Of a stretch of DNA of 12,984 nucleotides, positions 572 through 11,791 are shown piece after piece (the first letter of the stretch is position 1; every line of letters starts with the position of its first letter). The notes beneath the pieces were generated by a model. It made no database searches, had not been told where the DNA came from, and worked only from the letters and a program-made list of their open reading frames with translations. The position numbers were made by a program, and so were the translations under genes. The stretch is taken from assembly GCA_019347795.1 (NCBI GenBank), contig JAHWKS010000045.1:1-12984 (forward strand), given 5' to 3'. This stretch comes from Planctomycetota bacterium. Its GTDB lineage: Bacteria; Planctomycetota; Planctomycetia; Pirellulales; Pirellulaceae.

Positions 572-3500
572 ATGACCTTCCCCGCCGACAACTCGACCCA
601 CGACGATCCCCCATGGGACGCGGAGTTGTTCGTCCTGCGCGGCGAGGATCGCGCGGAGCTGCGGGGGAAGCTCGCGGAATTCGAGCAGCTTCTTAACGCG
701 GCGCCTGAGGCGGGACTTTGCGATCTCGCCTCTAACCTCAACTCCGGCCTGGCGCCCGGCGGCGTGCGATTGGCGATCGTCGCCAAGTCGCGGGAGGATT
801 TGGAGGCGAAGCTCGCCCGCGCAGCCGGCAAGCTGGCGGACCCCGCGTGCGAGAAGATTCGCGACGTCACCGGTATTTATTTCTTCGCCGAGCCGCTCCA
901 TCCGCAGGGCAAGATCGCTTTCCTCTTTCCCGGCGAAGGGGCCCAGTACCTGCACATGCTGGGCGATCTGCTGCCGCACTTTCCGGTGCTGGACGCGGTG
1001 CTGGCGGACTGCGATGAGATCGCCGCCCGGCCGGAGATGACGATGCTGTCGCCGCGACGCTTCATCGCCTTTCCCAAAGACGCGGCGCCGGAGGAGCGCG
1101 AGGCGGCCGAGCGGGAGTTGCGGCGGCTAGGAAACGCAATGTTCAGCGTGCTGGTGGCCGACCTGGCGCTGTTCCATCTGCTGGAGCAGTTCGGCGTGAC
1201 GCCCGACATGATCGGCGGCCACAGCGCCGGCGAACTGGCGGCGTTGATGGCGTCCGGCGCCACGAGCGACGAGCACGATACCACGGAGCGCGTCGTCCAC
1301 ACAATGCAGGCGCTGGAGGAGATGGAGGATGAAACCGGCATCGAGCCGGCCGTGCTCCTGGCGGTCGGGGCCTCGCGGGAGAAGATGACGGCGTTGCTGG
1401 AGGCCGCCGGCGTCGAAAACGCCTTCGTGGCGATGGACAATTGTCCGCATCAGACGGTCCTCGTGGGGGAAGCGGCGCCGATGGCGGAAGTCGAGGCTCG
1501 GCTGCAAAAGGAGGGTTACGTCTTTGAGCGATTGACGCTCACGCGTCCTTACCACACGAAGTTGTTCGAGCCGTATTCCGCGCCGCTGGCGGAAATGCTC
1601 GAAGGCATTCCCTTCCAGGCGCCGGCCGGAAAGCTCTACTCCTGCACCACCGCCGCCGAGTTTCCCAGCGACCCGGCAGCGATGCGGAGCCTCACCTTGG
1701 CGCACTGGTTTTCGCCGGTGGAGTTCACGCAGATGATCCGCAATATGTACGACGACGGCGCCAGGCTGTTTGTCGAAGTCGGACCGCGCGGCAATCTTAC
1801 CTCGTTCGTAGAAGACATCCTCCGCGGCCGGCCGTCGCTGGCCATTCCCGCCGATACCCCGCGCCGCAGCGGCATCACGCAGCTCCATCATCTGCTCGCG
1901 CAACTCGCCGCCCACGACGTCCCCCTGGACCTCGCCCCGCTCTACGACCACCGCCTCACAAAAGACGATAGCCGGGGGCCGGCAGCCTCCGGAGGTCAGC
2001 ATTACGAATCGCTCACCACCACCTCGCACACCGACGTCGTCACCGGCCATCTCTCGCTGATGGACCAGTTCCTCGGCGATCAGGAAGCGGTAATGCAGCA
2101 GTATCTGGCGGCGCGGCAGGCGGGGAGGTTGCCGGCGCGGGGGCGGCGAGGCGGAGGACGAGTGGCGACAGCGGTGATGGCGAGTGATGCATCCGTTCAT
2201 CCTCCGGAGGCTGTTAGCCTCCGGCTAGGGGAAGATGATGAAACCGCGCTCGGCCCGCGCCCCCTGCCGCTGCTTGGCGAGATCGTCCACCACGAGCCCG
2301 GGCAGCACGTTGTCATGCGGCGGCGGCTTGATCTGGCGGAGGATCTGTTCGCGGCCGATCACACCGTCGGCGGTCGGCTGGTCAGCAAGGTTCACCCGGA
2401 TCACTACGGGCTGCCGATCGGGCCGATGACGTTCACGCTGGAGCTGATGGCGGAAACGGCGGCTCTGCTGGCGCCGGAGATGGCGGCCGTCGAGGTGAAA
2501 GATGTGCGGCTGTTTCGCTGGCTGGCGTATCACGAAGACGCCCCGGGCGAGATCGAAGTGACGGCGAACGTAGTAGGCACACTCCAGGCGCCGTCCGATA
2601 AACCCGCGGACTTGCGGTCAGAGAACGGCACACGGAGTGTGCCTGCTACTTTGGAGGTGGACGTCCGGCTCTCGATTGTCGACAACGGCAACCTGCCCCC
2701 GGGCGAGACGGCCGGTCCGGCCGCGGTCGGCCGCGTCGTGCTGGCGCCGGCGTATCCGGCTGCTCCCGCCGCCGAGCCGTTGGACTTGACCGGACGACGA
2801 CCCGTGTCGGTCACGCTTGAGCGTCTCTATCACGACCTGTTCCACGGACCGCTGTTTATGGGCGTCACCGACTTGATTGCCATCGGCGAGGAGGGAATCG
2901 AGGCCGAGGCAATCGCGCTGCCGCGGCAGGGGCTGCTGCGTTCGACTGACGATCCGCAGTTCCTGCTCGATCCGGTGCTCATGGACGTGGCGATGCATCC
3001 GCTGTGCGCCTGGCATCTGGAGCAGCCCGATCTCGCGGGGCGGACGCTGCTGCCGTTCGAGCTGCAGTCGATGAAGGTCTACGGTCCGCAGCCGGCGGAA
3101 GGGATGCGGCTCCGCGTGCGGGGTAAGATCGTCGAGAAGTCGCCGCGGCACTTCGTCCACGGCGTGGAAGTGTTGGACGAGCACGGCCGCTTGTGGTGTG
3201 AGCTGGTCGCCAAGTACTGGCGATTCTATATGCCCTACGGCGATGTGAACTTCCACGGCCGGAAAGACGAATACTTCATCAGCAATCGTTGGGACGAGGC
3301 GGTCGCCGATACGCCGCGGGGGGTGTGCGTGCGGTTGGAGCCGCCGGTCGATCTGCACCAGCCGGCCATGCAGATGGTCACCGCAAAAATCACACTCTCC
3401 GACGACGAGATGCGGGAGTATTGCCGGATGAACGTCCCGCCGAAGAAGCGGTTCGACTGGGTCTTCGGCCGGCTGGCGGCCAAAGACGCCGTGCGGCTGG

Positions 3501-4024
3501 CGTGGTGGGAGCAACATGGCGAACGCTTCTTCCCCGCCGACATGGAGATCAAGCACGATGAGCGCGGCCGGCCCTGGGCGATGCATCTTGGCTACGGCGA
3601 GGATGCGGCGATGCCGAATGTTTCCGTCTCGCACGCGGACGGCGTGATGGCGGCGCTGGCTTCGTTCGAGCCGCACCTGGGAATCGACCTGGAGAAGATC
3701 GAGCCGCGGGAAGCGAGCTTCGGGGCCCTCGCCTTTGACGACGAGGAGCGGCGGTTGCTGGACGAGCAGCTGGACCGCATGGAAGCGGTCACCCGGTTCT
3801 GGTGCGCAAAGGAGGCGGTCGCGAAGGCGCTCGGCCGCGGATTGTCAGAGGGACCCCGCAGCGTGACGGTGCGAGCTTTCGATCCCGCATCCGGCGGCGT
3901 CGAGGTGGAGCTGGGCGCGGCCCTTGCAGCCGAGTTCCCCGACTTCGCCGGAAAGCGCCTTACTGCCTTCACGCGGCGGTACAAGAACTTCATCGTCGCG
4001 ACGACGTTCTGCGACCGTGCGTAA
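572..4024 (+). CDS. Multidomain synthase subunit: acyltransferase - PKS dehydratase - phosphopantetheinyl transferase
   Basis: A 1150-residue iterative-synthase subunit. Residues about 15-112 resemble the linker that normally joins a ketosynthase to an acyltransferase (AT). The AT spans about 113-430, with FPGEGAQY (119-126), nucleophile Ser218 in GGHSAGE and probable catalytic His328 in RPYHT. A linker containing HLSLMDQFLGDQEAVMQQYL follows (493-512). A double-hotdog PKS dehydratase spans about 567-888, with His597 in HTVGG (HxxxG) and Asp805 in DVAMH (DxxxH). The C-terminus (about 930-1150) is an Sfp-type phosphopantetheinyl transferase (PPTase): GIDLE (1037-1041; Asp1039 and Glu1041 likely bind Mg) and WCAKE (1077-1081). 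The expected roles are transacylation, dehydration of beta-hydroxyacyl-ACP and activation of the carrier proteins. The start is ATG 572; no good Shine-Dalgarno is seen, but the conserved linker begins within 15 codons. Three palindromic repeats lie in frame (residues about 466-475, 543-552 and 667-693). The AT lacks the usual malonyl-binding Arg. The ACP gene follows after 30 bases. Confidence 0.93.
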   Translation: MTFPADNSTHDDPPWDAELFVLRGEDRAELRGKLAEFEQLLNAAPEAGLCDLASNLNSGLAPGGVRLAIVAKSREDLEAKLARAAGKLADPACEKIRDVTGIYFFAEPLHPQGKIAFLFPGEGAQYLHMLGDLLPHFPVLDAVLADCDEIAARPEMTMLSPRRFIAFPKDAAPEEREAAERELRRLGNAMFSVLVADLALFHLLEQFGVTPDMIGGHSAGELAALMASGATSDEHDTTERVVHTMQALEEMEDETGIEPAVLLAVGASREKMTALLEAAGVENAFVAMDNCPHQTVLVGEAAPMAEVEARLQKEGYVFERLTLTRPYHTKLFEPYSAPLAEMLEGIPFQAPAGKLYSCTTAAEFPSDPAAMRSLTLAHWFSPVEFTQMIRNMYDDGARLFVEVGPRGNLTSFVEDILRGRPSLAIPADTPRRSGITQLHHLLAQLAAHDVPLDLAPLYDHRLTKDDSRGPAASGGQHYESLTTTSHTDVVTGHLSLMDQFLGDQEAVMQQYLAARQAGRLPARGRRGGGRVATAVMASDASVHPPEAVSLRLGEDDETALGPRPLPLLGEIVHHEPGQHVVMRRRLDLAEDLFAADHTVGGRLVSKVHPDHYGLPIGPMTFTLELMAETAALLAPEMAAVEVKDVRLFRWLAYHEDAPGEIEVTANVVGTLQAPSDKPADLRSENGTRSVPATLEVDVRLSIVDNGNLPPGETAGPAAVGRVVLAPAYPAAPAAEPLDLTGRRPVSVTLERLYHDLFHGPLFMGVTDLIAIGEEGIEAEAIALPRQGLLRSTDDPQFLLDPVLMDVAMHPLCAWHLEQPDLAGRTLLPFELQSMKVYGPQPAEGMRLRVRGKIVEKSPRHFVHGVEVLDEHGRLWCELVAKYWRFYMPYGDVNFHGRKDEYFISNRWDEAVADTPRGVCVRLEPPVDLHQPAMQMVTAKITLSDDEMREYCRMNVPPKKRFDWVFGRLAAKDAVRLAWWEQHGERFFPADMEIKHDERGRPWAMHLGYGEDAAMPNVSVSHADGVMAALASFEPHLGIDLEKIEPREASFGALAFDDEERRLLDEQLDRMEAVTRFWCAKEAVAKALGRGLSEGPRSVTVRAFDPASGGVEVELGAALAAEFPDFAGKRLTAFTRRYKNFIVATTFCDRA
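1969..1995 (+). repeat. 27-base hairpin repeat, copy 1, inside the synthase gene
   Basis: The stretch begins TAGCCGGGGGCC and ends AGCCTCCGGAGG, and can fold into a short hairpin. It matches the reverse complement of 2201-2227 at 23 of 27 positions. It falls in the AT-to-dehydratase linker and is translated in frame (around residues DSRGPAASGG). It looks like an acquired repeat rather than protein-driven sequence, because its mate has the opposite orientation and so a different peptide translation. Confidence 0.65.
2201..2227 (-). repeat. 27-base hairpin repeat, copy 2, opposite orientation
   Basis: CCGGAGGCT (2204-2212), a 3-base loop and AGCCTCCGG (2216-2224) form a perfect 9-base stem. 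The whole unit is the inverted mate of 1969-1995. It is read in frame as part of a low-complexity segment just before the dehydratase (around PPEAVSLRLG). The two copies flank the conserved HLSLMDQFL linker, so the sequence between them is native synthase rather than a mobile cargo. Confidence 0.7.
2570..2649 (+). repeat. Palindromic dispersed element, in-frame copy inside the dehydratase
   Basis: The left end GTAGTAGGCACACT (2570-2583) and right end AGTGTGCCTGCTAC (2636-2649) are inverted repeats matching at 13 of 14 positions. Imperfect complementarity continues inward through GCCGTCCG and GAACGGCACACGG. The same family recurs in the gap at 6691-6773. The 80-base unit encodes residues about 667-693 (including NGTRSVPAT) without breaking the frame. 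It sits between two apparent beta strands of the first hotdog (IEVTANVV and LEVDVRLSIV), the sort of turn that could tolerate an insertion. No transposase is present, so it resembles a MITE or REP-like unit. Confidence 0.85.
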
Positions 4025-4370: not shown

Positions 4371-4457
4371 GGAGTGATGGAGTAATGGGGGAGAATCCTC
4401 GATGCAGGTCACCTGGATTCCTCGCAACACTCCAACACTCCAACACTCCAACACTCC
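4371..4457. repeat. GGAGTGAT / ACTCC inverted-repeat element with an 8-base tandem array
   Basis: The ACP-hydrolase gap opens with GGAGTGATGGAGTAATGG (4371-4388) and closes with four exact tandem copies of AACACTCC (4426-4457). The array is the inverted complement of the opening motif (12 of 13 positions). The opening motif recurs at 5303-5320 with one mismatch in 18. The element begins about 22 bases after the ACP stop and fills most of the gap, so the gene pair may once have been more tightly spaced. Confidence 0.75.
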
Positions 4458-4469
4458 ACCCCGCGGCCC

Positions 4470-5309: not shown

Positions 5310-5480
5310 TGGAGTCATGGAAAGGCATCCAGTCTTCGCGTTTCCAAGCGTTACGGGCAACGTAGAATGAAGAAAAAGTCACATCCTGAGACAATCCACG
5401 CTCCTGCATGACAGCCAAGTCCTCCGACACGCCACCACTCCACTCCAACCCTCCATAACTCCACTACTCCATTACTCCCC
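5303..5480. repeat. GGAGTGAT / ACTCC inverted-repeat element, second copy
   Basis: GGAGTGATGGAGTCATGG (5303-5320) overlaps the hydrolase stop codon (TGA at 5307-5309). An array of degenerate ACTCC units occupies 5432-5480 and contains ACTCCATTACTCC (5466-5478), the inverted complement of the opening 13 bases with one mismatch. The intervening 110 bases show no gene. The layout matches the element at 4371-4457 with a longer centre. Confidence 0.72.
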
Positions 5481-6690: not shown

Positions 6691-6773
6691 GTAATAGGCA
6701 CACTCGTGTGCCGTCCGCGAACAATGTTCGCGACAGAAGCGAAGAAGAACGGCGCCCGGAGTGTGCCTGCTAC
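6691..6773 (+). repeat. Palindromic dispersed element, intergenic copy
   Basis: GTAATAGGCACACT (6691-6704) and AGTGTGCCTGCTAC (6760-6773) are inverted ends of the family also present at 2570-2649; the 14-base right ends of the two copies are identical. Inside, CGCGAACA and TGTTCGCG around one central A form a perfect 17-base nested palindrome (6716-6732). The element begins four bases after the permease stop and ends 17 bases before the ATPase start, so it accounts for nearly the whole gap. Confidence 0.85.
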
Positions 6774-7522: not shown

Positions 7523-7586
7523 GGAACACTAATCGACGCTAATCTCCGCTTATCTATTAGCGAGAATTGGCGCCGATTAGTGTTCC
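7523..7586. repeat. 64-base imperfect palindrome after the ABC ATPase
   Basis: GGAACACTAATC (7523-7534) and GATTAGTGTTCC (7575-7586) are perfect 12-base inverted ends. Pairing extends to about 21 bases with two mismatches, and further with small bulges. The interior shows a TAATC/CGCT rhythm at 8-10-base spacing. It could end transcription of the ABC operon as a long hairpin, but no clear T-run follows. It is more AT-rich than its surroundings. It looks like another dispersed repeat family. Confidence 0.75.
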
Positions 7587-11676: not shown

Positions 11677-11695
11677 GTGGTGTATGACGTGTGGC

Positions 11696-11767
11696 TGGCG
11701 GCGGAGCGCAGCGACGTCCCGGCGCGCTATCGCCATCCGCTAGGGAAGTAGCTGCGCTCCGCCGCTA
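11696..11767. repeat. 72-base palindrome between hemQ and the dehydrogenase gene
   Basis: Two 25-base arms (11696-11720 and 11743-11767) are inverted repeats matching at 22 positions, with a perfect 15-base core, GCGGCGGAGCGCAGC at 11698-11712 against 11751-11765. The loop is 22 bases. It fills most of the gap. It can form a very stable hairpin, but no T-run follows. It does not resemble the other repeat families in the window. Confidence 0.8.
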
Positions 11768-11791
11768 CCCATCACGTGAGGTTAGCTTCCT

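Follow-up and report, generated by a model that had tools for sequence, protein, structure and literature searches.

The window (the whole stretch of planctomycete DNA analysed, 12,984 nt) contains a gene for an AT–dehydratase–phosphopantetheinyl transferase protein, whose open reading frame runs uninterrupted across an 80-nt palindromic repeat with GTAG...CTAC ends coding for residues 667-693 (Table 1). An earlier note on this DNA had placed a dispersed palindromic unit at exactly this position, had read it as translated in frame inside the dehydratase domain, and had pointed to an intergenic relative with like ends. The letters and the genome counts bear out the first of these, and the other two also hold, the relative being a second dimer of the same repeat family.

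Table 1. Position of the host gene and of the repeat features in the window.
Feature	Position	Strand	Basis or remark
Host gene, AT–dehydratase–phosphopantetheinyl transferase protein (1150 aa)	572..4024	+	Pfam Acyl_transf_1, PS-DH, ACPS
Diverged inverted mate of the second repeat	1969..1995	-	85% complementary; read as SRGPAAS
Second palindromic repeat CTCCGGAGGCTGTTAGCCTCCGGCTA	2202..2227	+	Read as PEAVSLRL, in frame, within the AT-DH linker
Head-to-head dimer of GTAG-tagged REPs (80 nt)	2570..2649		In frame as VVGTLQAPSDKPADLRSENGTRSVPAT, residues 667-693
Left REP, GTAG-TA-GGCACAC-TCC-AGGCGCC	2570..2592	+	Sequence, fold
Spacer between left and right REP (34 nt)	2593..2626		Length and sequence vary among copies
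Right REP, exact GTAGCAGGCACACTCCGTGTGCC on the minus strand	2627..2649	-	Pattern search
Right flank TTTG (outward CAAA)	2650..2653		Matches the flank signature YAWR-GTAG
Second dimer of the REP family (83 nt)	6691..6773		Between a permease-like gene and an ATPase gene

The 80-nt unit reads GTAGTAGGCACACTCCAGGCGCC, then the spacer, then GGCACACGGAGTGTGCCTGCTAC, and is a REPIN/BIME-like dimer of GTAG-tagged REP hairpins. The REP has the form GTAGYA-GGCACAC-TCC-GTGTGCC; each half is a tagged hairpin with a 7-bp stem and a TCC loop, and the tags face outward. In this copy the inner arm of the left half pairs poorly and is one base off the GGGCGCC variant of other copies, and the left flank (GAAC) agrees with the YAWR signature at -3 and -2 only. 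The single-strand fold of the unit gave z = -4.4 against shuffled sequences, and a one-hairpin fold was obtained for all five copies tested, picked from 43 dimers (z -3.9 to -13.4). The length of the unit is not a multiple of three. The peptide NGARSVPAT, previously proposed as the counterpart of this unit's translation in the intergenic copy, is a potential reading there, that copy lying between two genes.

Two repeat families are represented in the host gene, every copy in frame. The second is that of CTCCGGAGGCTGTTAGCCTCCGGCTA, which a genome-wide search allowing 3 mismatches located at 12 places, eight of them exact (reversed control 0); the homologue designated P0002 reads PEAAGLRL at this position and has related peptides in its AT-DH linker. 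A search of 295 kb with its 11-nt arms returned 13 matches against 13 for the control. Other repeats lie elsewhere in the window. An intergenic inverted repeat at 11692-11771 (29-nt arms, 86%) with a GTAG...CTCCGC...CTAC motif is perhaps another REP dimer, a hairpin whose 31-nt arms, separated by 2 nt, are 81% complementary follows the ABC ATPase gene at 7523-7586, and intergenic arrays of the 8-nt unit CACTCCAA and its relatives flank a hydrolase gene at 4420-4467 and 5420-5480.

The REP is dispersed through its own genome (an assembly of 5.9 Mb in 976 contigs, 72% complete). A 16-nt arm with up to 2 mismatches gave 88 matches against 10 for the reversed pattern, and the 23-nt REP with up to 1 mismatch occurred 63 times against none; the ends are therefore not confined to the two places where they had been seen in the window. 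Copies were examined in 51 stretches, comprising the window, 43 of the 44 other match-bearing contigs (C233 was left out) and seven stretches with transposase matches. These hold 43 dimers, 54-131 nt long with spacer sequences that differ among copies, and 11 single arms, of which some, like the weakest dimer (L085), may be chance matches. Outside the tags lies the signature YAWR, 94% of flanks having A at -3; this is consistent with cleavage at CA/CT as described for TnpAREP in the text available from PMC8266576.

Among related genomes the distribution is patchy. At up to 1 mismatch the 23-nt REP is present in 36 of 241 genomes of the family and in 11 of 148 genomes of the class, the latter from three families and so also outside its own (the two sets overlap; reversed control 0 in both). 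The number of occurrences reaches 311 in genome G257, and at this threshold none was found in G032, which is the one further genome of the genus among the 241.

An AlphaFold2 model of the full protein with 42 homologues (mean pLDDT 86, pTM 0.65) places the insert in a predicted low-confidence loop (pLDDT about 51-54) between strands E659-667 and E695-704, in agreement with the position between two beta strands suggested earlier. These strands we take to be part of the first hotdog of the dehydratase. Residues H597, D805 and H809 are invariant in the 43-protein alignment; the earlier statement that both catalytic motifs are intact stands to this extent, the three residues being presumably those of the dehydratase motifs.

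A protein search returned 76 proteins, of which the first 71 (the host protein and 70 others) were aligned and five more distant ones left out. Read from this alignment, the insert peptide is found in one of the 70 others, P0002, and the region is variable among homologues. P0002 is 79% identical to the host protein in the region searched and 72% overall, and reads VAGTLRVPSA...DGTRSVPAT at the insert, with a diverged spacer. In line with the expectation that orthologues would be without the insert, 69 of 70 aligned homologues lack it, P0002 being the exception, and no conservation of the 26 residues among distant orthologues was seen. The expected gap of about 26 residues did not appear. The segment around the loop has 61 residues here, 62 in P0002, 48 and 47 in the next two proteins and 38-50 in the rest, a net gain of 13-14 residues over the nearest insert-free homologues, because the repeat stands where a native variable loop was.

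The same relation is seen in other genes when G032 is used for comparison. The comparison, made at the protein level, covered seven of the nine dimers located within genes, as the PKS was not in the query and the LVIVD protein had no match, and at all seven sites G032 has an unrelated loop. The repeat encodes 19-28 residues, and the net length changes relative to G032 are +12, -3, +8, +6, +17, +24 and +13 residues, figures that derive from loose loop alignments. Since the net changes in the seven genes are smaller than the insert length, the repeat stands in for native loop residues, which may have been removed by the insertion or by later deletions.

In-gene copies were called with a codon-usage score, which required that both flanks (up to 240 nt) be coding, in the same frame and open. 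Codon statistics were used because Pfam assigned a family to only eight of 30 ORFs over copies, one of them below cut-off. Many of the long ORFs that span the palindrome belong to the wrong strand; of the L119 ORFs, Pfam was given that of the plus strand and not that of the minus strand. By this rough test 9 of 43 dimers lie in frame inside genes and 34 fail, the score having been trained on 11 genes of which five hold a copy, so that for those five it is partly circular. The hosts are PdxA, an impB/mucB-type polymerase-like protein, a 1226-aa protein without a Pfam family, an LVIVD-repeat protein, a PKS, two contig-end UvrA pieces, a second UvrA-like protein and the dehydratase. A copy in HisG (L093) was rejected, as it falls within residues 1-22 and its two flanks are in different frames, and the only one of 11 single arms to pass the test (L115, 2 mismatches) is probably due to chance.

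Three of the dimers are in UvrA-type genes (L116, L118, L119), L118 and L119 being named UvrA from protein matches and alignments with G032. Because both UvrA pieces match one 2359-aa ORF of G032, they probably belong to a single gene that received two insertions. Judged by eye from flanking residues, one of these insertions and that in the second UvrA occupy corresponding positions of the paralogues. UvrA as a general target was rejected; in the UvrA loci of 12 other repeat-carrying genomes (available for 30 of 40 matches and reaching about 1.5 kb to either side of the interaction domain) no arm turned up within 2 mismatches, and allowing 3 gave a single one.

The right half is read in a single frame, [ND]-G-[TA]-R-S-[VL]-P-[AT]-[TS], in 9/9 in-gene dimers, and the left half as V-[VA]-G-[TA]-L in seven and as SRHTPCA or SKHTPCA in two. 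The 43 dimers allow 258 readings, of which 135 are open, and in 53 of these (39%) the right half is in this frame; the probability of 9/9 by chance is about 2e-4 if the sites are independent. The bias may come from selection against Cys- and hydrophobic-rich frames or from a target effect. An insert length of 2 mod 3 was found in 7 of 9 in-gene dimers versus 13 of 34 others, which is not significant (Fisher p 0.059), and no insertion length was inferred from it.

The fixed frame and the displaced loops could be read together. In this lineage REP doublets may act as loop replacers, persisting in genes in one hydrophilic frame where native variable loops used to be, the loops at corresponding sites of the two UvrA paralogues among them, so that one cassette would be reused as a linker in unrelated enzymes; this reading is tentative and we hold it to be rather doubtful. 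It is improbable that the insert is under selection, either as a protein loop with a task or as an mRNA hairpin tuning translation or stability of the operon. The peptide shared with P0002 despite the diverged spacer and the 9/9 frame bias speak for such a role, but the insert is missing from 69 of the 70 other aligned homologues, the copy in the dehydratase gene has lost the pairing of its left REP, and the same peptide occurs at nine sites in different proteins.

The mover of the repeat was sought among RAYT-type transposases. In the own assembly, which is 72% complete, no RAYT adjoining the REP came to light; its nine Y1_Tnp matches fall in seven stretches, none with the repeat; two of these stretches carry other GTAG hairpins. 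Likewise, none of 30 Y1_Tnp loci from 12 other genomes carries the repeat, and the linked RAYTs described here are weak matches outside these 30. In G073, which has 98 arms at up to 2 mismatches and in which 17 of 19 dimers inspected are 59 or 89 nt long, contig C173 encodes a 241-aa RAYT-type protein with GTAGCAGGCACATTCCATGTGCC on both sides (one changed stem pair, GGCACAT). Its scores lie below the cut-offs (NF047646, 57 bits against 80; Y1_Tnp, 20.9 against 23). In G212 a 91% identical homologue lies between a GGCACAT and a GGCAGTC variant, and a 65% homologue in G229, with one stop and cut by a contig end, has family-like, partly masked arms at its 3' end. Both the G073 and the G212 protein are thus flanked by stem variants and not by the dispersed GGCACAC form.

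Homologues of the G073 RAYT were found in 20 of 23 genomes tested, some by weak matches. The own genome has one such weak match (E 2.7e-4), with other hairpins alongside, and the homologue in G032 has its own hairpin type on both sides. Three of the 23 gave no homologue although they carry the repeat, namely G160 (67 arms), G038 (16 arms) and G009 (5 arms), and G038, which is 99% complete, gave no Y1_Tnp match whatsoever. Many of the 30 RAYT loci inspected have other tagged hairpins beside them, with an apex resembling CTCCG. At the RAYT homologues L276-L305 the flanking hairpins carry GTAG, GTCG, GTGG or GTTG, many with a CTCCG apex, and judged from these hairpins the tag changes inside one transposase clade. 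Many dimers of G073 (L257-L275) have a longer conserved flank, TTCCAAA-GTAG, so that what moves in that genome may extend beyond the dimer. A RAYT as the putative mover is supported in relatives and unproven in the own genome.

These data also bear on the proposal of a MITE/REP-like element, of which the REP-like part stood: the element is dispersed, in frame and predicted to form a loop. A MITE with terminal inverted repeats, moved by a cut-and-paste DDE transposase, would account for the inverted ends, the length of 54-131 nt and the variable middle. This is nevertheless very improbable, given that no target-site duplication was detected in 42 flank pairs over 30 length/shift combinations (lowest p 0.056), that each arm is itself a GTAG hairpin, and that a RAYT is associated with the repeat in G073 and G212. 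A repeat-induced chimera of assembly or binning, which 976 contigs and 72% completeness might invite, is hardly credible when codon statistics agree on both sides of the insert and the separate sequence P0002 has it at the same place. The notion of a native loop that merely resembles the repeat, suggested by the variability of the region, can be dismissed in view of the exact 23-nt right REP and the 63 such REPs in the genome.

The explanation we consider probable is that of a REP doublet (REPIN/BIME type) of a GTAG-tagged family, most likely spread in trans by a RAYT, with the copy in the dehydratase gene being a loop-tolerated insert that predates the split from P0002. A RAYT, an HUH/Y1 single-strand transposase, would recognise the tagged hairpin and move the doublet. 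One copy would have entered the dehydratase gene before the two lineages separated, as shared descent with P0002 (seen as protein only) suggests. It may have survived because its frame is open and hydrophilic and because a variable surface loop between strands would put little constraint on length or sequence, the change being near-neutral if so. The native loop residues are gone, by a route that may be either of those given above. Confidence in the RAYT explanation is lowered because the REPs flanking the RAYTs are stem variants and because three repeat-carrying genomes are without that RAYT. Furthermore, simple insertion does not explain net changes smaller than the insert length in seven genes.

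GTAG-tagged REPs have been described with a stem of 6-13 bp, mostly a small loop and the tag at one end, and planctomycetes are among the hosts named in the portions consulted of Di Nocera, De Gregorio and Rocco (2013; PMC3733652). The present repeat resembles those described there in its GTAG tag, short stem, small TCC loop, head-to-head dimers and high dispersed copy number, and may be one of the R. baltica families of that paper. Such REPs lie for the most part outside genes; of the 43 dimers here, 34 did not pass the rough in-gene test. Two 15-nt repeat cores and GTRSVPAT were not found in a search of literature text, figures and supplements lying outside it. Intragenic GTAG REP dimers encoding 20-30 aa were also reported in 2013, O. 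terrae having a double insertion in each of its two uvrA genes (as excerpted from PMC3733652); as intragenic uvrA dimers now recur with a repeat of another phylum, the question of why repair genes are hit becomes testable. REPINs, according to the sections seen of Bertels and Rainey (2011; PMC3116915), share the inverted doublet folding into one hairpin and, in relatives of the present genome, the RAYT flanked by the REP type. They differ in being nearly all extragenic (14 of 1,067 16-mers overlap genes), whereas here 9 of 43 dimers are called in genes and a RAYT was not found in the own genome. The link made here is to a divergent RAYT clade, which scores near the Pfam cut-off and is easily missed.

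That the element writes new loops into proteins, as the earlier note suggested, holds as an in-frame loop at this site, but the phenomenon was already known, as parts of PMC3733652 and PMC10969869 indicate. Rickettsia palindromic elements, as portrayed in excerpts of these two sources, are likewise palindromes inserted in frame in unrelated genes with a recurrent peptide. By description rather than sequence comparison, they differ from the present repeat in size, about 150 bp in the review PMC10969869 against 80 nt here, and in their ends, CGTC in R. conorii (PMC3733652, in part) against GTAG/CTAC. The dehydratase insert is a well-documented further case of in-frame palindromic insertion, which it extends to a planctomycete with a second genome in its genus that gave no match to the repeat, so that before-and-after protein pairs become directly testable.
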